64,000 bases of DNA, taken from assembly GCF_012769535.1 (NCBI RefSeq), contig NZ_CP046565.1, forward strand, positions 1,192,501 through 1,256,500. The letters are read 5' to 3'. The notes below the pieces were generated by a model. It did not search any database, was not told where the DNA came from, and saw nothing but the letters and a program-made list of their open reading frames with translations. The stretch is from Methylococcus geothermalis. GTDB lineage: Bacteria > Pseudomonadota > Gammaproteobacteria > Methylococcales > Methylococcaceae. Of this stretch, positions 10,428 to 28,398 are shown piece by piece. The translations under genes were made by a program, and so were the position numbers. Each line of letters opens with the position of its first letter. Within the stretch, counting starts at the first letter, position 1.

Positions 10428-13106
10428 TTACAGGGTCCGGTGCACTTGCACGACGGAAGCATCGTCCGCCGCAGGGTTCGCCGAGAATCCGAGCGCTTCC
10501 ATGAACCGCAGCATCTTGCCGTTGCCGGCCAGAACTTCACCCTGCAATTTTTGAATCCCCATTTCGCGCGCGGCATCGGCCAGCATGGCCATGAGGCGCG
10601 CGCCGATGCCGCGGCGCTGCCAGGCGTCGGCGACGACGATGGCGAATTCGGCGGTTTCTCCCCCCGGATCGCTGAAAAAGCGCGCGACCGCCACTTCGGT
10701 CTCCCGCCCTTCCGCCTCGACGGTCGCGATCAGGGCCAATTCCCGGTGGTAATCGAGCTGGGTCAGGCGTACCAGCATGTCCGGGCTCAATTCCTGGACC
10801 GACTGCATGAAGCGGAAATACTTGGCCTCCTCCGACAGGCCACGGACGAATTCCTGCTCCATCGCCGCGTCCTCGGGCCGAATCGGGCGGATGGTGACGG
10901 AGGTGCCATCATGGAGCTGGAGCCGGCTGACCCACTGCGCGGGATAGGGATGGATCGCCATGTGATCGTAGCGCCTGCGTCCGGGCGGCGGGTGGCGCAC
11001 GACGATGCGGGCGTCCAGCGCATAAACCCCGGTTTCGTCGGCCACCAGCGGATTGATGTCCATTTCGCGGATCTGCGGCAGCTCGCACACCATTTCCGAC
11101 ACCCGCTGCAGAATCTGGACCAGCGCTTCCATACGGACCGGCGGCAGGTTGCGAAAAGGCCCGAGGGCGGCGGAGATGCGGGTCTGGCCGATCAGCGTGC
11201 GGGCGATAGGGGCGTTGATCGGCGGCAGGCCGATCGCCCGGTCGCGGTTGATCTCCACCGCCGTGCCGCCTGCGCCGAAGCCGATCACCGGCCCGAAAAC
11301 CGGATCGTCGATCACGCCCACCAGCAGTTCACGCCCGTTCCGCCCCGTGTACATTTTTTCCACCGACACCCCGTCGAGGCGGGCATCCGGCTTGCGCAGG
11401 CCGACCCGCGCCAGCAGTGCGTTGTAGGCCTGCCGCACCGATTCGGCATGCGTCACGTTGAGCATCACCCCGTCCACGTCGGACTTGTGGGTGATGTCCG
11501 GCGACAGCACCTTCAGGGCGACCGGAAATCCCAGGCACTCCGCCGCCGCCAGGGCTTCGTTGGGGGAATGGGCGGAAAGGGCCGGCAGCATGGGGATGCG
11601 GAAAGCGCCGAGGATGGCGCGCGTTTCCAGCGGGGAAAGCAGGCTGCGCTTGTCCCCCAGCGCGCCTTCGACGATCAGGTGGGCACCGGCGACGTCGGGC
11701 GGTTCGAGTTCGGCCAGGGGGCCGGGTGCCTGCAGCAGCATGTGCTGGTTGCGATGGTGTTCGGCGAGGAAGCCGAAGGCTTCGGTGGCGCTTTCGGGGT
11801 TGGGGAAGGAGGGGATGCCATGTTCGGTGAACAGCGCCCGGCCCTCCCGGACCTGGGTTTCGCCGAGCCAACAGGCCAGCACCGGCTTTTTCGAATCGCC
11901 GATCGCCGCGATGGTTCGCTGGGCCGCTCCGGTGGGATCGGTCATGGCCTGCGGCGTGAGCATCACCAGCAGGCCGTCCACCCCGGGATCACCCAGGCAG
12001 GCTTCGACCGCCGAGGCATAGCGCTCCGGCGTGGCGTCGCCGAGAATGTCGATCGGATTGCCGTGAGACCAGAACGCCGGCAGGGCCTGGTCGAGGCGCT
12101 GCAGCGTGCTCTGGGACAGTTCCGCCAGGCGTAGCCGCCGTTCGACCGCGGCGTCGGTCGCCATCACGCCGGGGCCTCCGGCATTGGTGACGATGGCCAG
12201 ACGCTCCCCCTGGACGGGGTGGGCGCCTGCGAGCAACTGGGCGGCGGCGAACAACTGCTCGATCGTCTTGGCACGGACCACGCCGGCGCGTTTCAGGGCG
12301 GCGTCGAATACGTCGTCGGCGCCCACCAGGGCGCCGGTGTGGGAGACCGCCGCGCGCGAGCCTTCGGCGTAGCGGCCGGCCTTGATGACGATGACGGGCT
12401 TGAGTCGCGCCGCCGCCCGCAATCCGCTCATGAAGCGGCGGGCGTCGCGGATGCCTTCCACATACAGCAAGATACTGCGGGTCTCCTGATCCAGTGCCAA
12501 ATAATCCAGGATGTCGCCGAAATCGAGGTCGTAAGCCGAACCGATGGACGCGACCACGGAAAACCCGATGCGGTGGGCGCTGGCCCAATCGACGATCGCC
12601 GTGCATAGCGCACCGGACTGGGACACCAGGGCGAGCCCACCCGGCAGGGCCACATTATTGCTGAAGGTGGCGTTGAGATTCAGGCTGGGCCGCATCAGCC
12701 CCAGGCAGTTCGGCCCGAGCAGCCTTATGCCATGATTTCTGGCTTCCGCGAGAAGCGACTGGGATAGGCGGCGGCCCTGGCTGTCGCCGTCCCCGAAACC
12801 GGCGGAGAACACGATCGCGGCCCGGACGTTCTGCTCGCCGCAGTCCCTGAAAATGGCCGGCACGGTCGGCGCCGGCGTGGCGATCAGGGCCAAGTCGACG
12901 GCGCCTTCGACTTCGCTCAGCGACTTGTAGCAGCGCTGGCCCAGGATCTGTTCGTGCTTGGGATTGACGGGATAGACCGGGCCGCGGAAACCGCCTTCGA
13001 GCAGATTGCCGAAGATACGGAATCCCACCGAATCAGGGCGCTCGCTGGCGCCGAACACGGCGACGGCGCGGGGCTGAAAGAGTGTGTCGAGGTAGGGGCC
13101 GGCCAT
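10428..13106 (-). CDS. Protein lysine acyltransferase / ADP-forming acyl-CoA synthetase-like fusion (Pat/YfiQ type)
   Basis: Starting at ATG 13106, 4 bp after the pcm stop, gives 892 residues. Order: CoA-binding domain (AVAVFGASERPDSVGFRIFGNLLEGGF), succinyl-CoA-ligase-like domain (ALVSQSGALCTAIVDWA), an ATP-grasp part with FPVALKVLSPDITHKSDVDGV, and a C-terminal GNAT acetyltransferase domain (QRRGIGARLMAMLADAAREM). This is the architecture of E. coli PatZ/YfiQ, which acetylates lysines of acetyl-CoA synthetase and other proteins; catalysis is then by the GNAT part. A longer reading to 13169 would overlap pcm and is less likely. Confidence 0.85.
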   Translation of the reverse strand: MAGPYLDTLFQPRAVAVFGASERPDSVGFRIFGNLLEGGFRGPVYPVNPKHEQILGQRCYKSLSEVEGAVDLALIATPAPTVPAIFRDCGEQNVRAAIVFSAGFGDGDSQGRRLSQSLLAEARNHGIRLLGPNCLGLMRPSLNLNATFSNNVALPGGLALVSQSGALCTAIVDWASAHRIGFSVVASIGSAYDLDFGDILDYLALDQETRSILLYVEGIRDARRFMSGLRAAARLKPVIVIKAGRYAEGSRAAVSHTGALVGADDVFDAALKRAGVVRAKTIEQLFAAAQLLAGAHPVQGERLAIVTNAGGPGVMATDAAVERRLRLAELSQSTLQRLDQALPAFWSHGNPIDILGDATPERYASAVEACLGDPGVDGLLVMLTPQAMTDPTGAAQRTIAAIGDSKKPVLACWLGETQVREGRALFTEHGIPSFPNPESATEAFGFLAEHHRNQHMLLQAPGPLAELEPPDVAGAHLIVEGALGDKRSLLSPLETRAILGAFRIPMLPALSAHSPNEALAAAECLGFPVALKVLSPDITHKSDVDGVMLNVTHAESVRQAYNALLARVGLRKPDARLDGVSVEKMYTGRNGRELLVGVIDDPVFGPVIGFGAGGTAVEINRDRAIGLPPINAPIARTLIGQTRISAALGPFRNLPPVRMEALVQILQRVSEMVCELPQIREMDINPLVADETGVYALDARIVVRHPPPGRRRYDHMAIHPYPAQWVSRLQLHDGTSVTIRPIRPEDAAMEQEFVRGLSEEAKYFRFMQSVQELSPDMLVRLTQLDYHRELALIATVEAEGRETEVAVARFFSDPGGETAEFAIVVADAWQRRGIGARLMAMLADAAREMGIQKLQGEVLAGNGKMLRFMEALGFSANPAADDASVVQVHRTL

Positions 13107-20337: not shown

Positions 20338-21264
20338 TCACTTTTCAAACCCAGCCTGTCTTGCGTTCGCTGCCAGTTGGCCAACGCGACCCTCCCCATC
20401 CATCCACAACGCCGGCAGCCCCAGGGTCCGCAGCCATTCGGGGCCGTCGGCTGCCTTCAGCATGGCGATGGTGCAGGCGCTGCCGGCGACGAGGGCGTGC
20501 GGGGCGGCCACGCTCACCGAGGCCAATCCTTCGACCGGCCAGCCGGTCCTGGGGTTGAGGATATGGCCGTAGCGTTTGCCGTCCACGACGATGCAGCGCT
20601 CGTAGTCGCCGCTGGTGGTCACCGCGCCGGAGCGGACGCTGAGGGTGGCAAGGAGCTTTCCGGGTTCGCGCGGGTGGTTGATGCCGACCTCCCAGGCCGC
20701 GCCGTCCGGGTGCGGGCCGATCACCCGCAGGTCGCCGCCGAAATTGACCACGCCGGCCGTGATGCCGCGTTCGAGGCAGCGCGTCGACGCCCGGTCGGCC
20801 GCGTATTCCTTGCCGATGCCGCCGAAATCCAACTCCATGCCGGGCACCTCGAATTTCAGCACCGGCCGTTCCCACCTGAGCTTGTCCCAGCCGACCCGTT
20901 CCAGCAGGGCATCGATGTCGCGCTGCTCGGGCAGCCGGTCGCTCGAGAAATTCCAGGCTTGGCGCAGGATGCCGGAGGTCACGTCGAATAGCCCGTCGCT
21001 CTGTTCGTAGCAGGTCCGGGCATAGTCGAGCAGGGCCGCCAATTCTTCATCGACAGCCACCCCGCCTTTCCGGCCGGCTAGGCGATTGACCCTGGACAGC
21101 AGGCTGTCCGGCCGGTAGCGCGAGTAGCGGGCTTCCAGGGCTTGCACATCCTCGATCACTTCCCTTGCCACGGACTGCGCCTCGGTTTCGCTTGCGGCGT
21201 AGAGGATCAGATGGCAGGGCGAACCCATCGCCCGGAACGGGAAGCGGAAGGGATGCAGGTCCAA
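20338..21264 (-). CDS. apbE: FAD:protein FMN transferase (ApbE family)
   Basis: Transfers FMN from FAD onto a Thr of target flavoproteins. 308 residues. Family blocks: ALEARYSRYRPDSLLSRVNR, ELDFGGIGKEYAADRAS, GVVNFGGDLRVIGPHP, and HILNPRTGWPVEGLASVSVAAP with the metal site. Unlike most ApbE proteins there is no evident signal peptide or lipobox: the start MDLHPFRFPFRAMGSPCHLIL goes straight into the domain. Last gene of the thioredoxin-like / DUF4266 / DUF3570 / ApbE set, 7 bp after DUF3570. Its flavin target is not in the window. Confidence 0.92.
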   Translation of the reverse strand: MDLHPFRFPFRAMGSPCHLILYAASETEAQSVAREVIEDVQALEARYSRYRPDSLLSRVNRLAGRKGGVAVDEELAALLDYARTCYEQSDGLFDVTSGILRQAWNFSSDRLPEQRDIDALLERVGWDKLRWERPVLKFEVPGMELDFGGIGKEYAADRASTRCLERGITAGVVNFGGDLRVIGPHPDGAAWEVGINHPREPGKLLATLSVRSGAVTTSGDYERCIVVDGKRYGHILNPRTGWPVEGLASVSVAAPHALVAGSACTIAMLKAADGPEWLRTLGLPALWMDGEGRVGQLAANARQAGFEK

Positions 21265-21271
21265 CGGCTCG

Positions 21272-22723
21272 TCAGAACTTCAGGCTCAGGTTGACCGAAT
21301 ACAGGGCGAAGCTGAAATTGTCCACGTGGCTGCCGGTGCCGCCCATGAATCCCATGCCCTGGGTGCGCTGGTACAGGTCCACCCCGCCGCCGATCTGCAG
21401 CATCCCGAAGAAGGTCTTGTTCAACTGGAGCCCGCCGCCGACCGCGCCGAAGCTGGCGAGCCGATAGTCGGAGGAATACAGGCCGTCGGCGGTCGGGTTG
21501 TCGTAGACGGTTTGATAGAAGTACGAAGAGCGCTGGGTGTAATACCTGAGGCGGAACGTCAGCATCGTCTCGTAGGGCAGCGGCTGCAGCCAGCCGGCTT
21601 CGAAGGTGTGCGAGTCGATGTTCCAGTTGTCCGAATAGAAGCGGTAATCCAGGTGCAGCGCGGCCGCATCCAGCTCCGGAATGTTCCGCACATAGCGCAG
21701 CAGCACCGCGGACTGGATGCGCGATCCGGGGCGGGTGTCGGCGCAGAGGTTGGCCTGGAAGGAAAAGGGCACGCTCTGCCGGCAAAAAGTGTTGACCGGT
21801 GTTTCGGGAACCTCGACCGGCTGGTCGGGCGAGGGACCTGGCGTCGGCGACGGCTCAGGGTTTCCGCCGCTGGCCCCGCTGCGCGTCGACATGTCCGGAG
21901 CGTTTTGCGCCGATGCGGAGCGGGTGGAGGACGAGCGGGCCGCGGGAACGTTGTTCACCCAGGCCGACTTGTACGGATCGGACAAAAAGCCGGAACTGTT
22001 GCTGACGGTCAGATTGACCTGGATCAGCGAGTTCTTGTCCAGCACCTGGGTCAGGCCCAGCAGCCCCTGGTAGGTGTTCTTGTCGCCGCCGATCACCGTG
22101 CCGTCGGTGTATTGCTGGTGAATGCGGCCCTGGTGGCCGCCGTCCGCCCAGACGGTGTCGGAGGCATAGCCGAAGCCGGCGGCGAGGGTCGTCGCCTTCC
22201 GGTTGAGGTCCCAGCGCGCGTCCAGGTTGAAGAAGTTGGAGAGGTAGTCCCACTCCGTGGAGTTGCCACCGGCGACGCCCAGCGTCAGGTCGTCCAGCGC
22301 CACACTCAGGGCGCCGTCGATGGCCAGACGCTGGTCGTGGATCCCGCCCTGCCGGCCCTGCTGCGGGCCCTGGGTGGCCTGCGACAGCTCCAGTTCGCCG
22401 TATTTTCTGCCGTAGTCGTTGTTCCGCCCCCAGTAGAAAGTGGGGGAGGCGCCTCCGATCTGGTTCAGGTTCATCGGATTCGAGCCGCCGCCGATGAAGT
22501 CCAGCGTACTGTTCACCCGGAAATGGACGTCTTCGCCCAGCCGGAGCGCCGCGTCGTTCTGGAACGCCTGCACCGACATCCGCCCGTTGCTTTCCTGGTA
22601 ATTCGAATAGCTGCCGTCGATCGCCAGGGCTTCCGGGGTGAGCTCCATCCCTTGCGCGGCCGCCATGCCCGGCAGGGCCAGGGCCGCCGCCGTGAAGGCC
22701 GCCAGCCGGTCAGTTGCAGCCAC
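21272..22723 (-). CDS. DUF3570 outer-membrane beta-barrel protein
   Basis: About 483 residues from GTG 22723, which puts a good signal peptide first (AATDRLAAFTAAALALPGMAAAQG); further GTG codons at 22732 and 22750 are alternatives. The body is rich in alternating aromatic strands typical of a barrel (FYWGRNNDYGRKYGELELSQ; ALYSVNLSLKF ends with aromatic Phe). A Pro/Ser-rich insert around residue 290 (EPSPTPGPSPDQP) is followed by two Cys in FCRQSVPFSFQANLC. Overlaps the DUF4266 gene by 14 bp. Function unknown; DUF3570 proteins commonly accompany DUF4266, a thioredoxin-like protein and ApbE. Confidence 0.8.
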   Translation of the reverse strand: MAATDRLAAFTAAALALPGMAAAQGMELTPEALAIDGSYSNYQESNGRMSVQAFQNDAALRLGEDVHFRVNSTLDFIGGGSNPMNLNQIGGASPTFYWGRNNDYGRKYGELELSQATQGPQQGRQGGIHDQRLAIDGALSVALDDLTLGVAGGNSTEWDYLSNFFNLDARWDLNRKATTLAAGFGYASDTVWADGGHQGRIHQQYTDGTVIGGDKNTYQGLLGLTQVLDKNSLIQVNLTVSNSSGFLSDPYKSAWVNNVPAARSSSTRSASAQNAPDMSTRSGASGGNPEPSPTPGPSPDQPVEVPETPVNTFCRQSVPFSFQANLCADTRPGSRIQSAVLLRYVRNIPELDAAALHLDYRFYSDNWNIDSHTFEAGWLQPLPYETMLTFRLRYYTQRSSYFYQTVYDNPTADGLYSSDYRLASFGAVGGGLQLNKTFFGMLQIGGGVDLYQRTQGMGFMGGTGSHVDNFSFALYSVNLSLKF

Positions 22724-22922
22724 AGCCCCCACCGCCCACGCCGTAGCCACCCGACGAGGTCTCCTTGGAACTGTAGGTATGCAGCATGAGCGCCGAATGC
22801 TGGACGTCCGGCACCAGCGCCATCTGCGGTTTGGCGAGCGTGCCGCGCTCCCAGGGGGCGACCGTCTGTAGGCAGCCGGACAGGAAGGCGAGGTGGCAGG
22901 ACAAAAGCATCACCCGTTTCAT
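22710..22922 (-). CDS. DUF4266 small lipoprotein
   Basis: 70 residues from ATG 22922. A short signal with a lipobox (LSGC, lipid Cys17) leads to APWERGTLAKPQMALVPD and the family C-terminus SSKETSSGGYGVGGGGCGCN. The ending with two cysteines in a Gly-rich tail is characteristic of DUF4266. It lies between the thioredoxin-like gene and DUF3570, overlapping the latter. A role as a redox or metal partner of the neighbouring thioredoxin-like protein is inference only. Confidence 0.82.
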   Translation of the reverse strand: MKRVMLLSCHLAFLSGCLQTVAPWERGTLAKPQMALVPDVQHSALMLHTYSSKETSSGGYGVGGGGCGCN

Positions 22923-22987
22923 CCAGGTGTCCCACCCTTGCCGTCGAACTCGGCAAGGGCTTCGTTGTCGTATCCTGAGGAGAGCGG

Positions 22988-23470
22988 TCACGGCTCGTTG
23001 AGCAGCGCTTCGATCTGGGCGCGGATTTCCGCCTTGTCCTTTTCCCGGAACCCCAAGTGGACATGGCGGATGTTGCCCTTCCGGTCGATGAGGAACGATG
23101 ATGGCATCGCCTGGACGTCGAACTGTCTGGGACAATCGCCCTCCGGGTCGGACGCGATGGTGAAGTCGACAGGCTGTTTCGCCAGGAAAGCATCCGCGCC
23201 CTCCCGCTCCTCGTCGAGGTTGACCGCGATCAGCTCGAAGCCTTTCGGCTTGAAATCCTTGTAGGTTTCGGCCATGAACGGGAACGACTGCAGACAGGGG
23301 CCGCACCAGGAGGCCCAGAAGTCGACATAGGCCACTTTGCCCTTGAAACCGGCGATATTCAGGGGTGCTCCGTCCTGGTACCGGCTCAGCCGGCAGTCCG
23401 GCGCGGGGTTGGCTGAGACCGTGGCGGCGAAAAAGGCGGCGAGAAATCCGGAAACGAGGTGTCTGTTCAT
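22988..23470 (-). CDS. Exported TlpA-like thioredoxin-fold protein
   Basis: 160 residues from ATG 23470. Signal peptide to about residue 20 (AAFFAATVSA), then a thioredoxin fold with the active site FWASWCGPC, Cys56 and Cys59, and the cis-Pro region VQAMPSSFLIDRKGNIRHVH. Resembles periplasmic TlpA/ResA reductants. First gene of the DUF4266/DUF3570/ApbE set; the longer open frame upstream has no support. A 65-bp gap precedes DUF4266. Confidence 0.88.
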   Translation of the reverse strand: MNRHLVSGFLAAFFAATVSANPAPDCRLSRYQDGAPLNIAGFKGKVAYVDFWASWCGPCLQSFPFMAETYKDFKPKGFELIAVNLDEEREGADAFLAKQPVDFTIASDPEGDCPRQFDVQAMPSSFLIDRKGNIRHVHLGFREKDKAEIRAQIEALLNEP

Positions 23471-24629: not shown

Positions 24630-26174
24630 TGATGGGACTTGATTTGGGTTGTTGAGACTGAAGATACCCTCATTTATGTTGGTAGCTAACCCGTGTTGCC
24701 GGTTTCTATCCGCTCCCGGCTATTGAGCCGGGAGATACTCCCATCCCGGGTCCGGATAGGCAAGCGAACCATCAGGTTTCAATCCACTCCCGGCTATTGA
24801 GCCGGGAGATACTCGTCCATACCAGCCGCGGGGCGCGGTCATTGATGTTTCAATCCACTCCCGGCTATTGAGCCGGGAGATACCTTTGATCGCCGTTTCG
24901 GCAATCAATTTTCCCGCGTTTCAATCCACTCCCGGCTATTGAGCCGGGAGATACCGCTCTGGGTGGCTCCGGTGTTATCGGTATAGGTGTTTCAATCCAC
25001 TCCCGGCTATTGAGCCGGGAGATACGTTGATGGTGCCGTTGACGTCGAGCGCAACCTCGGTTTCAATCCACTCCCGGCTATTGAGCCGGGAGATACCCTT
25101 GTTGATCTGCCAGCCTGATGCGCCGCCGCTCGTTTCAATCCACTCCCGGCTATTGAGCCGGGAGATACGACGACGAGCCGGTCGACGTCCCGTTTTTGGC
25201 GGTTTCAATCCACTCCCGGCTATTGAGCCGGGAGATACAGCCTATCGGCCTGCTCGGCAGTAGCATCGATAGTGTTTCAATCCACTCCCGGCTATTGAGC
25301 CGGGAGATACGTCTTGGGGTTGATATGGAAATGAAGGTAGTAAAGTTTCAATCCACTCCCGGCTATTGAGCCGGGAGATACCCACCGCCACCAGGTTGAG
25401 CATCAGCCCCATGAGCCGTTTCAATCCACTCCCGGCTATTGAGCCGGGAGATACGCTACTGATGTTTTCGCGGCTACTGACTATACGCCGTTGTTTCAAT
25501 CCACTCCCGGCTATTGAGCCGGGAGATACGCTTTACATTGATCCGGCGGGCAATCAATCAACCGTTTCAATCCACTCCCGGCTATTGAGCCGGGAGATAC
25601 ACCCACAGGACACGTGTTACCAGTACCATACCAGTGTTTCAATCCACTCCCGGCTATTGAGCCGGGAGATACAGGAACCAGCCAGGTACTTGCCCGGCTC
25701 ACGCAAGTTTCAATCCACTCCCGGCTATTGAGCCGGGAGATACGATGGCGGTACGTGTCCTATTTATACTATTTCAAGTTTCAATCCACTCCCGGCTATT
25801 GAGCCGGGAGATACGCACCTTCGCCGTCGCCTTCTCCGGTCGCTGTGTCGTTTCAATCCACTCCCGGCTATTGAGCCGGGAGATACAGCTTTACATTGAT
25901 CCGGCGGGCAATCAATCAACCGTTTCAATCCACTCCCGGCTATTGAGCCGGGAGATACGTCCAACTTTTTATACGGCGACTTATCTTTCCCCGTTTCAAT
26001 CCACTCCCGGCTATTGAGCCGGGAGATACGGGCAGCATCATGCTGAAACGCCTACTCTTTAGCATGTTTCAATCCACTCCCGGCTATTGAGCCGGGAGAT
26101 ACATGTGCATCGCCATTTACAACCACCTGAAACGGTTGTTTCAATCCACTCCCGGCTATTGAGCCGGGAGATAC

Positions 26175-26279
26175 ATTCACGCAACGATCTAATAACAGCC
26201 ATTTTTACGTTTCAATCCACTCCCGGCTATTGAGCCGGGAGATACATTCACGCAACGATCTAATAACAGCCATTTTTAC
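26175..26279. repeat. Adjacent duplicate spacer
   Basis: The spacer beginning ATTCACGCAA at 26175-26208 is repeated exactly at 26246-26279, with one repeat between. A single-unit version of the block duplication further along. Confidence 0.95.
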
Positions 26280-26604
26280 GTTTCAATCCACTCCCGGCTA
26301 TTGAGCCGGGAGATACGTCGACACGAACGTTTTATCGACCAAATTACGCACAGTTTCAATCCACTCCCGGCTATTGAGCCGGGAGATACTCCTCAGCTCG
26401 AACGCAGGATCATCAAGTACTACGTTTCAATCCACTCCCGGCTATTGAGCCGGGAGATACCGACACGCGCCGAGCGTACTGGGAGAGCATCTTCAGTTTC
26501 AATCCACTCCCGGCTATTGAGCCGGGAGATACCCTCGGAACTGGAACTCCGAGAAGGGCGTACCGTTGTTTCAATCCACTCCCGGCTATTGAGCCGGGAG
26601 ATAC

Positions 26605-27320
26605 CATGTCTGAGAGATACGTCGGGCACGTTTTAGCGGTTTCAATCCACTCCCGGCTATTGAGCCGGGAGATACGGATGATTCGCCATCGCATGGCTGC
26701 CCGAACTTCAGGTTTCAATCCACTCCCGGCTATTGAGCCGGGAGATACCGCCTACAACGAGCGCGAAGCCCTGCTGGACGCCGTTTCAATCCACTCCCGG
26801 CTATTGAGCCGGGAGATACCTCCAAGCATGGCGCCTGGTGCGAGTATCGGATTGTTTCAATCCACTCCCGGCTATTGAGCCGGGAGATACCGTTCAGCCT
26901 GGGAGGGCTGTTCCACATCCTGACCGTTTCAATCCACTCCCGGCTATTGAGCCGGGAGATACCATGTCTGAGAGATACGTCGGGCACGTTTTAGCGGTTT
27001 CAATCCACTCCCGGCTATTGAGCCGGGAGATACGGATGATTCGCCATCGCATGGCTGCCCGAACTTCAGGTTTCAATCCACTCCCGGCTATTGAGCCGGG
27101 AGATACCGCCTACAACGAGCGCGAAGCCCTGCTGGACGCCGTTTCAATCCACTCCCGGCTATTGAGCCGGGAGATACCTCCAAGCATGGCGCCTGGTGCG
27201 AGTATCGGATTGTTTCAATCCACTCCCGGCTATTGAGCCGGGAGATACCGTTCAGCCTGGGAGGGCTGTTCCACATCCTGACCGTTTCAATCCACTCCCG
27301 GCTATTGAGCCGGGAGATAC
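26605..27320. repeat. Tandem duplication of a five-spacer block inside the array
   Basis: The 358 bp at 26605-26962 (five spacers with five repeats) recur without a visible difference at 26963-27320. The spacers begin CATGTCTGAG, GGATGATTCG, CGCCTACAAC, CTCCAAGCAT and CGTTCAGCCT in both copies. This is best explained by unequal recombination between repeats. Confidence 0.97.
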
Positions 27321-28398
27321 CGCGCACCGTTTATCCTCGCTTCTGCCTCATCGAGGTTTCAATCCACTCCCGGCTATTGAGCCGGGAGATACGCGAAAAT
27401 CCCACGGCGGAATCGGATTGGGTTGTGTTTCAATCCACTCCCGGCTATTGAGCCGGGAGATACCCGATCACGTCATCCATATGAACGCAGATGAACAAGT
27501 TTCAATCCACTCCCGGCTATTGAGCCGGGAGATACCGATCGAGGAGGCCCGGCCAGCTCTACCAGGTGGAGTTTCAATCCACTCCCGGCTATTGAGCCGG
27601 GAGATACCGGCAAATCCGTCCTGGTCGCGCTTGGCATAGTCCGTTTCAATCCACTCCCGGCTATTGAGCCGGGAGATACCGACGGTGCCCAAACTCATTG
27701 TCCGCATTGCAGGCGTTTCAATCCACTCCCGGCTATTGAGCCGGGAGATACCGCACTGATGAAGGCGTTCGAAGGTGCCACGGAAGTTTCAATCCACTCC
27801 CGGCTATTGAGCCGGGAGATACACATCGATTCCTGCCGCATGCTGCATGTGATGGCGGGTTTCAATCCACTCCCGGCTATTGAGCCGGGAGATACTTGTC
27901 TTCATTCTTTGTTCTCCGCGATGTCGTTTGTTTCAATCCACTCCCGGCTATTGAGCCGGGAGATACTTCTGCGAACAGATGGCGCAAGAGGGCATCGGTG
28001 TGTTTCAATCCACTCCCGGCTATTGAGCCGGGAGATACGATAGTAGGCGGGATCATGGGCGTACTGGCGGTAGTTTCAATCCACTCCCGGCTATTGAGCC
28101 GGGAGATACCAAATTCGCTGTCGGTCAGGTTGGCCTTGAACGCTTCGTTTCAATCCACTCCCGGCTATTGAGCCGGGAGATACCCGCCATCGCCATCGTT
28201 CCGGCCGAGGGTCGATAGAGTTTCAATCCACTCCCGGCTATTGAGCCGGGAGATACGCCCAGTTCGGCATAGAGTTCCGCGAATTTCCCGGTTTCAATCC
28301 ACTCCCGGCTATTGAGCCGGGAGATACTGTAGGTATACCCGTAGCCCGTGCCGTCCACGATGTTTCAATCCACTCCCGGCTATTGAGCCGGGAGATAC

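Follow-up and report, generated by a model that had tools for sequence, protein, structure and literature searches.

Described DUF3570 clusters and the Methylococcus locus

The closest described systems are the DsbD-type DUF3570 clusters of Meheust et al. (eLife 2021; PMC8238504). In the passages of that paper that concern DUF3570, the Chlorobium luteolum protein is shown to be flavinylated, by its own ApbE and at two [S/T]GA[S/T] sites. The same passages count 285 DsbD clusters, of which 227 contain DUF3570, 183 a thioredoxin-like protein and 221 DUF4266, together with 316 clusters that hold the other four genes without DsbD. Electron flow from DsbD is proposed there, VIT1 is reported in 25 clusters, and Fe(III) reduction and iron assimilation are suggested. 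The locus compared here with these systems lies in a 64,000-nucleotide stretch of Methylococcus geothermalis DNA (the window, i.e. the whole stretch analyzed), which begins at C1:1192501 of a single-contig genome of 3.37 Mb. A compact minus-strand operon (window positions 20338-23470; C1:1212838 to 1215970) encodes a TlpA-like thioredoxin, a DUF4266 lipoprotein, a DUF3570 protein and an ApbE flavin transferase.

The cluster is almost certainly a member of the DsbD-type DUF3570 relay class. The initial annotation had listed four adjacent genes of these families on one strand, which both the coordinates and the Pfam assignments (PF08534, PF14086, PF12094, PF02424) confirm, and had regarded them as an undescribed pathway, a view that the 2021 description of the gene set (PMC8238504) overturns. 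The observation is thus confirmed and the system already known, and the earlier interpretation is partly supported.

Linkage of the gene set across genomes

Genomic neighborhood analysis of 274 genomes of the class, from which 14 weak fragment rows (pieces of places already counted) were left out, found DUF3570 in 71 genomes and DUF4266 in 66, all 66 nested within the 71. With fragments merged, DUF4266 lies within 3 kb of DUF3570 at 87 of 98 DUF3570 places, and DUF3570 within 3 kb of DUF4266 at 88 of 89 DUF4266 places. This linkage is strong, lies far beyond chance and rules out a chance neighborhood. It supports the linked extracytoplasmic redox module that the initial annotation had read from the window; that reading was said to fall if the four families showed no recurrent linkage, and the linkage is recurrent.

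Neighbors were counted in 100 loci, comprising the window locus, two other stretches of the same genome, 57 further class places and 40 regions from a survey of the order. The class places used, 58 of the 98 with the window's own, favor strong matches, and the order regions were picked among the matches listed; neighboring genes were called crudely, as longest open frames. On the same strand and within 4 kb of 105 DUF3570s, DUF4266 occurs in 97 cases, TlpA in 78, ApbE in 55 and DsbD in 8, all lower bounds since 27 of the 105 lie less than 4 kb from a locus end. The remnant locus L073 was left out of the site and linkage counts, and L206 and L207 out of this neighbor count. Given the figures of 97 and 78 against 55, the core set is TlpA-DUF4266-DUF3570, with ApbE frequent yet not always linked. 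DsbD, an optional member given the 316 described clusters that lack it, is absent beside the window cluster, the best DsbD_TM match in the genome being at C1:2762994 and the cluster at C1:1.21 Mb; the uncultured Methylococcus L206 has it next to the operon.

The five genus genomes whose operon is complete keep ApbE beside DUF3570, and so do L206 and L207. Another Methylococcus genome, G136, holds a decayed operon (positions 8189-9194 of L073, which is G136:C1:683000-701000), in which the TlpA frame is open and only a fragment of DUF3570 remains; one stretch reads like the end of an ApbE, and no DUF4266 match was found. Judging by this decay, the genus can probably do without the system.

The flavinylation site of DUF3570

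The conserved site was located in an alignment of 107 DUF3570s, where it reads [ST]GA[ST] in 62, [ST]GS[ST] in 5, [ST]SA[ST] in 13, GGGS in 7 and otherwise in 20 (14 of them GGAT). At the acceptor position, 104 of the 107 have Ser or Thr. The GGGS form belongs to all seven Methylococcus-type sequences, namely the window, four genus genomes, L206 and L207, the last a metagenome-assembled genome nearly identical to L206. The canonical [S/T]GA[S/T] is therefore missing from the conserved place in the window (DFIGGGS, Table 1), with the acceptor Ser kept. According to the mutational results available from PMC12052999, flavinylation is abolished when the acceptor is lost, little affected by an Asp-to-Ala change, and reduced to about half when the Gly or Ala is replaced.

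The absence of an obvious flavoprotein target, remarked on in the initial annotation, does not extend to the family, for which it is rejected by the flavinylation of the C. luteolum protein as given in PMC8238504; it stands insofar as no canonical motif occupies the conserved place here. By sequence, DUF3570 is likely the flavin target, though with a degenerate site in Methylococcus, and the window protein is a probable flavin carrier. We lean towards its being flavinylated in this organism. Two further motifs of the window protein are listed in Table 1. The GGAS motif offers a second candidate acceptor, Ser102. The SGAS motif, the first candidate considered, is probably not a functional site because three of the seven Methylococcus-type sequences lack it (L162, which shares its contig with L205; L206; and L207), and its loop is species-variable.

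A second DUF3570 type, with the site SSAS, was found in 13 loci (L113, L114, L116-L125, L128), ten of them without ApbE within 4 kb. All 13 hold a member of a family represented by L123:9667-12438, a protein with HZS_alpha/PD40 domains, and 11 and 10 of the 13, respectively, hold members of a gene pair made up of an SH3 and a small-barrel gene.

A signal-less ApbE clade lacking the triad Asp

Among 65 aligned ApbEs (pieces of 240 residues or fewer were left out), 57 form one clade with a support of 0.94. The catalytic triad, in the part of PMC12052999 that numbers it, consists of Ser241, His257 and Asp285 in V. cholerae and of Ser257, His273 and Asp301 in FmnB; the solved structure 7esa is taken to be FmnB because its S237, H253 and D281 each stand 20 below these FmnB numbers. 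Aligned to 7esa and other solved ApbEs, the window ApbE keeps the triad Ser and His, has Gly at the place of the Asp, and carries a GKEY motif. The same Asp-to-Gly change occurs in all 56 clade members complete at that place, and in 55 of these Glu replaces Gly (GKEY versus GKGY and the like). The eight ApbEs outside the clade all have Asp and Gly: they are the genome's second ApbE, four from SSAS-type clusters and three from Flavobacterium, and are signal-peptide types. Since the two changes go together in 55 of the 56, the pair points to remodeling of the metal site rather than to an inactive enzyme.

The clade also differs at the N-terminus. The domain of the cluster ApbEs starts with F-x-A-M-x-[ST]-P-C or similar in the window and its relatives, leaving no space for a signal peptide in the window, where 12 residues from the TTG start, or 17 from the last upstream stop, precede the Pfam domain. 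By N-terminal length and hydropathy the window ApbE has neither signal peptide nor lipobox, features usual though not universal in ApbE. The initial annotation was right on this point, and among the relatives compared the missing signal peptide is common to the clade of the window ApbE. N-terminal hydropathy has a median of 0.07 and a maximum of 2.07 in the 57 clade members and runs from 2.0 to 3.11 in the other eight, a crude test with a slight overlap between the top of the former and the bottom of the latter.

If, as it seems, the enzyme is cytosolic and the barrel exported, flavinylation must precede export, unless ApbE has another job. That an unfolded precursor could receive the flavin is chemically plausible by analogy with the C. 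luteolum DUF3570, which was flavinylated although found mostly in the insoluble pellet in E. coli; the cloning is described in that section of PMC8238504 as 'similar' to that of a signal-peptide-truncated construct. Alternatively, the second ApbE of the genome (C1:637953), with its Asp-type triad and lipoprotein-like N-terminus, could be exported as a lipobox-type enzyme and flavinylate DUF3570 in the periplasm, leaving the cluster ApbE for another job. This is quite unlikely: ApbE lies within 4 kb of DUF3570 in 55 of 105 cases, and only three of these are of the SSAS type with its Asp-type ApbE.

The degenerate site and the altered triad, together with the ApbE-less sets of other genomes such as the ten of the SSAS type, also fit a loss of the flavin in Methylococcus. 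DUF3570 would then be unflavinylated, ApbE would serve another substrate or be a relic that processes flavin adenine dinucleotide, and TlpA, DUF4266 and the barrel would form a thiol-only relay. Against this, the genus genomes with a full operon, L206 and L207 all retain ApbE by DUF3570; the site still has its Asp and acceptor Ser, and the triad its Ser and His; the Asp-to-Gly change comes with its Gly-to-Glu partner, as if the site had been rebuilt; and the first Ser/Thr of the motif is also Gly in the 14 GGAT rows. Such a loss therefore appears rather unlikely, and flavinylation of DUF3570 is retained as the preferred reading.

The predicted barrel fold

The window DUF3570 matches PF12094 with 374.5 bits (curated cut-off 25 bits), covering positions 2-426 of 427. 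AlphaFold models of the window and L206 proteins, built from alignments of the same eight sequences, have a mean predicted local distance difference test score (pLDDT) of 55.5 and 52.9, respectively. Both have 16 strands, one of them split in the L206 model, with long loops after strands 3, 7, 9 and 13, all on one side in these low-confidence models. The window protein ends in ...NLSLKF, and its low-confidence model is a closed, even-stranded barrel with a terminal aromatic residue. VIA-align gives Z of 17-20 with solved barrels such as OmpF, OprB and FhaC, and the matches from Foldseek and VIA name many porins and other barrels, which is evidence of a barrel and not of function. Strand 3 is immediately followed by the acceptor Ser90 (Ser96 in L206), with which a 47-residue loop, modeled at very low confidence, begins. 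The long-loop side is taken as the outside, with both chain ends placed in the periplasm, and the models would accordingly put the flavin at the outer mouth of the barrel.

The barrel also bears on whether TlpA and DUF4266 form an electron relay at all, or a disulfide-maturation pair that folds the barrel through DUF3570 cysteines. The window barrel does have Cys 323 and 336 in a long loop, as do L205-L207. However, 44 of 107 DUF3570 stretches have no Cys and 34 have one, with TlpA and DUF4266 still linked in most, which leaves the maturation role highly improbable and an electron relay the reading carried forward.

A fused Met/His-rich domain and a possible copper link in the order

DUF3570 was matched in 167 of 251 genomes of the order, and in many members (L074, L081, L163-L175, L177-L182, L184-L195, L197, L198) an extra, barrel-like domain of ∼340 residues follows it at the C-terminus. 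In 40 such proteins the fused domain contains 5.3% Met and 5.5% His, versus 0.7% and 2.2% in the DUF3570 part, and across 20 sequences Met and His are invariant in the stretch MHM...M.AP.DW...M.MP....M.M. The domain was matched in 157 of the 251 genomes (six matches weaker than 1e-12) and in none of six in the window's genus; the same query gave no match in the window's own genome. Open frames of at least 840 residues contain 147 of the 150 fused-domain places listed. Two of 20 fused domains match PF13557 (Phenol_MetA_deg; best E 1e-8), which we take to be a family of outer-membrane channels. Tandem arrays of DUF3570 were seen on G373:C18 (at least five genes; L177, L178) and in a stretch of G367:C92 (four; L192), most of the genes with the fused domain and with some DUF4266 copies in between.

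Two secreted families recur beside the long DUF3570 form, one of ∼311 residues (27 members, 23 loci) and one of ∼158 residues (41 members, 30 loci); L180:10012-10449:- and L166:4299-5069:+ are example members. The fused domain is present in all 23 and all 30 of these loci, and in 35 of the 100 loci overall. A His directly follows a signal-cleavage-like A-x-A in 27/27 members of the 311-residue family and 33/41 of the 158-residue family, versus 72/554 other genes of the same loci, a control rate for what is a sequence pattern and not a SignalP prediction. Neither family has a convincing Pfam match (DUF1775 in 0/20 members of the 311-residue family), and PDB sequence searches returned nothing convincing (none for one family, two matches with E 0.24 and 0.75 for the other). 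In the order survey the 158-residue family was matched in 113 of the 251 genomes; 121 of its 150 listed places have the fused domain no more than 5 kb away, and only 96 of the 150 listed fused-domain places have the family at that distance.

The window's genome gave no match to the 158-residue family with that query. It holds two members of the 311-residue family away from the operon (Table 1), one matched in two frames and the other with a stop codon within its match. Near one of them lies an open reading frame with two CXXCH motifs, presumably a cytochrome c peroxidase-like protein. MCA0347, which PMC4257694 names as a surface protein, is a possible counterpart.

In YcnI, CopC, LPMO and PmoF, copper is bound by an N-terminal His (PMC8424229). 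By sequence, the fused domain and its N-terminal-His neighbors thus suggest copper. In the DUF3570 tree, Methylococcus falls inside the clade of the order (53 leaves, support 1.0), next to three DsbD-adjacent short forms (0.78). For the window the copper reading is an extrapolation, because the fused domain and neighbors are known from relatives. A function in Fe(III) reduction and iron assimilation would follow the proposal made, with its 25 VIT1 clusters, in the DUF3570 passages of PMC8238504. Here, no iron transporter was found among the ten neighbor families scanned against Pfam (of the 42 clusters listed, 28 lay outside the scan and four were operon families), and the recurrent neighbors in the window's order look copper-like, so that an iron function is doubtful. 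Even so, we put the chance that the metal is copper rather than iron at below even.

A proposed redox relay

We slightly favor reading the operon as a DsbD-type DUF3570 redox relay that carries electrons outward to the flavin of DUF3570 and reduces an acceptor, likely a metal. An inner-membrane DsbD, encoded elsewhere in the genome, would reduce the TlpA-like thioredoxin, which in turn would reduce the C-terminal CGC thiol pair of a DUF4266 presumably lipid-held at the outer membrane. DUF4266 would hand electrons to DUF3570, a predicted 16-stranded barrel with flavin mononucleotide (FMN) on the Ser just after strand 3, at its outer mouth. The acceptor reduced by the flavin, on the cell surface or beyond it, would most likely be a metal ion, with Cu(II) the candidate in methanotrophs and Fe(III) in other organisms. 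As the cluster ApbE has no signal peptide, FMN attachment would probably take place in the cytosol, on a barrel precursor still unfolded and yet to pass through Sec. Gene content, linkage, acceptor conservation, the type of ApbE and, in low-confidence models, the barrel fold are results of the present analysis, and DUF3570 flavinylation is demonstrated for a relative in PMC8238504; we infer the electron path and its direction, the metal, cytosolic flavinylation and lipid anchoring. Taken separately, outward flow is the better-favored direction, and the chances that a metal is reduced are about even.

Several points weigh against this relay. The window site departs from the consensus at two of four residues, and the cluster ApbE lacks the triad Asp, so that FMN transfer in Methylococcus is not assured. 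ApbE is missing near most SSAS-type DUF3570s, and for 12 short DUF3570s with a canonical site none was aligned from the fetched locus, some of these loci ending at contig ends; the relay may therefore not depend on a linked ApbE, or on flavin. The operon encodes no electron acceptor, nothing in the evidence fixes the electron direction, and mean pLDDT is below 56 in both models.

Methane oxidation depends on copper, and to our knowledge the passage of copper across the outer membrane of gammaproteobacterial methanotrophs is not settled. The relay could conceivably serve reductive copper acquisition in methanotrophs: the surface flavin would reduce Cu(II), Cu(I) would enter through the fused Met/His-lined barrel, and N-terminal-His proteins would hand it over, Methylococcus having the reductase without the fused channel and a cytosolic ApbE without the triad Asp loading the precursor. 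We consider this full scheme an unlikely, speculative extension. If it were true, methanotroph copper import would gain a concrete candidate in a thiol-fed surface flavin reductase to which a Met/His-rich barrel is fused. Separately, were a cytosolic ApbE to act on an outer-membrane substrate, a chain already carrying its flavin would have to pass through Sec, and an enzyme lacking the triad Asp would put current models of FMN transfer to the test.

Features of the locus

The four genes appear, by layout, to form one transcriptional unit, since DUF4266 and DUF3570 overlap by 41 base pairs and ApbE begins 7 base pairs past DUF3570. The TlpA-like protein matches PF08534, PF00578, PF13905, PF00085 and PF13098 in the Pfam scan, with no match found to PF13899; its matches to the NCBIfam ResA, TlpA and DsbE models are all under their cut-offs. 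With Cys at residues 26, 56, 59 and 113, it is presumed to be the thiol donor to DUF4266. The latter ends in GGGGCGCN, thus with a C-terminal CXC, and GCGC lies inside the last six residues of all 54 DUF4266 frames among those listed; it is presumed to act as a thiol/disulfide shuttle or Cu(I) ligand. A CRISPR-like array (clustered regularly interspaced short palindromic repeats) lies beside the operon at window positions 24713-28396, with 52 exact copies of the 24-mer CTCCCGGCTATTGAGCCGGGAGAT, the first 15 spacings being 70-75.

Table 1. Coordinates of the operon genes, of the motifs considered in DUF3570 and of related matches in the genome
Feature	Position	Strand	Basis or remark
TlpA/ResA-like exported thioredoxin	22988..23470	-	160 aa, WCGPC; PF08534 E 6.8e-31
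DUF4266 lipoprotein	22710..22922	-	70 aa, ATG at 22922, lipobox LSGC; PF14086 E 1.9e-22
DUF3570 outer-membrane beta barrel	21272..22750	-	492 aa as listed, start codon uncertain; PF12094 E 8.3e-112
DFIGGGS, flavinylation-site homologue, codons 84-90 of DUF3570, acceptor position Ser90	22481..22501	-	107-DUF3570 alignment
GGAS, second candidate acceptor Ser102, codons 99-102 of DUF3570	22445..22456	-	conserved in Methylococcus-type sequences
SGAS in Pro-rich loop, codons 291-294 of DUF3570	21869..21880	-	missing from 3/7 Methylococcus-type sequences
ApbE	20338..21264	-	308 aa, TTG start; PF02424 E 2.6e-76, 257.1 bits
311-residue-family matches of the window genome	L203:8835-9593 and 11269-12300; L202:8099-8842	-, -; +	similarity search

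Comparison with known systems

In the open-access library searched, which covers few subscription-journal papers, DUF3570 and DUF4266 were found in PMC8238504 alone; no paper in it was found to describe the barrel topology of the site, the signal-less ApbE clade without the triad Asp, the degenerate Methylococcus site, or the Met/His-rich fusion with its N-terminal-His neighbors. Term searches found neither 'copper' nor 'barrel' in the main text of PMC8238504, no mention of methanotrophs in the searched text of the 'signal-strapping' paper (PMC12537917), and neither ApbE nor thioredoxin in the main text of PMC4831470, which is no evidence either way on copper regulation in Methylococcus capsulatus.

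The order neighbors share with YcnI (DUF1775) and other N-terminal-His copper proteins (PMC8424229) a His after a cleavage-like site, a comparison of how the proteins might work only; no DUF1775 match was found in them, and neither family adjoins the window operon. The C-terminal domains of long DUF3570 proteins resemble PF13557 through the two matches among 20, yet differ in being fused to DUF3570, rich in Met and His, and not found in the window's genus. Like the cytosolic ApbE of Klebsiella pneumoniae, which acts on a soluble fumarate reductase (the passage of PMC12052999 on that enzyme), the window ApbE has no signal peptide; whereas the substrate there is a soluble enzyme, the linked substrate here is an exported outer-membrane barrel. 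The closest match remains the DsbD-type DUF3570 clusters, with which, as set out in the DUF3570 passages of PMC8238504, the locus shares clustered genes for ApbE, DUF3570, a thioredoxin-like protein and a DUF4266 with C-terminal CXC. It departs from them in its thioredoxin, of the Redoxin/TlpA type (PF08534) where the paper names PF13899, in a GGGS site in place of [S/T]GA[S/T], and in an ApbE without signal peptide and without the triad Asp.

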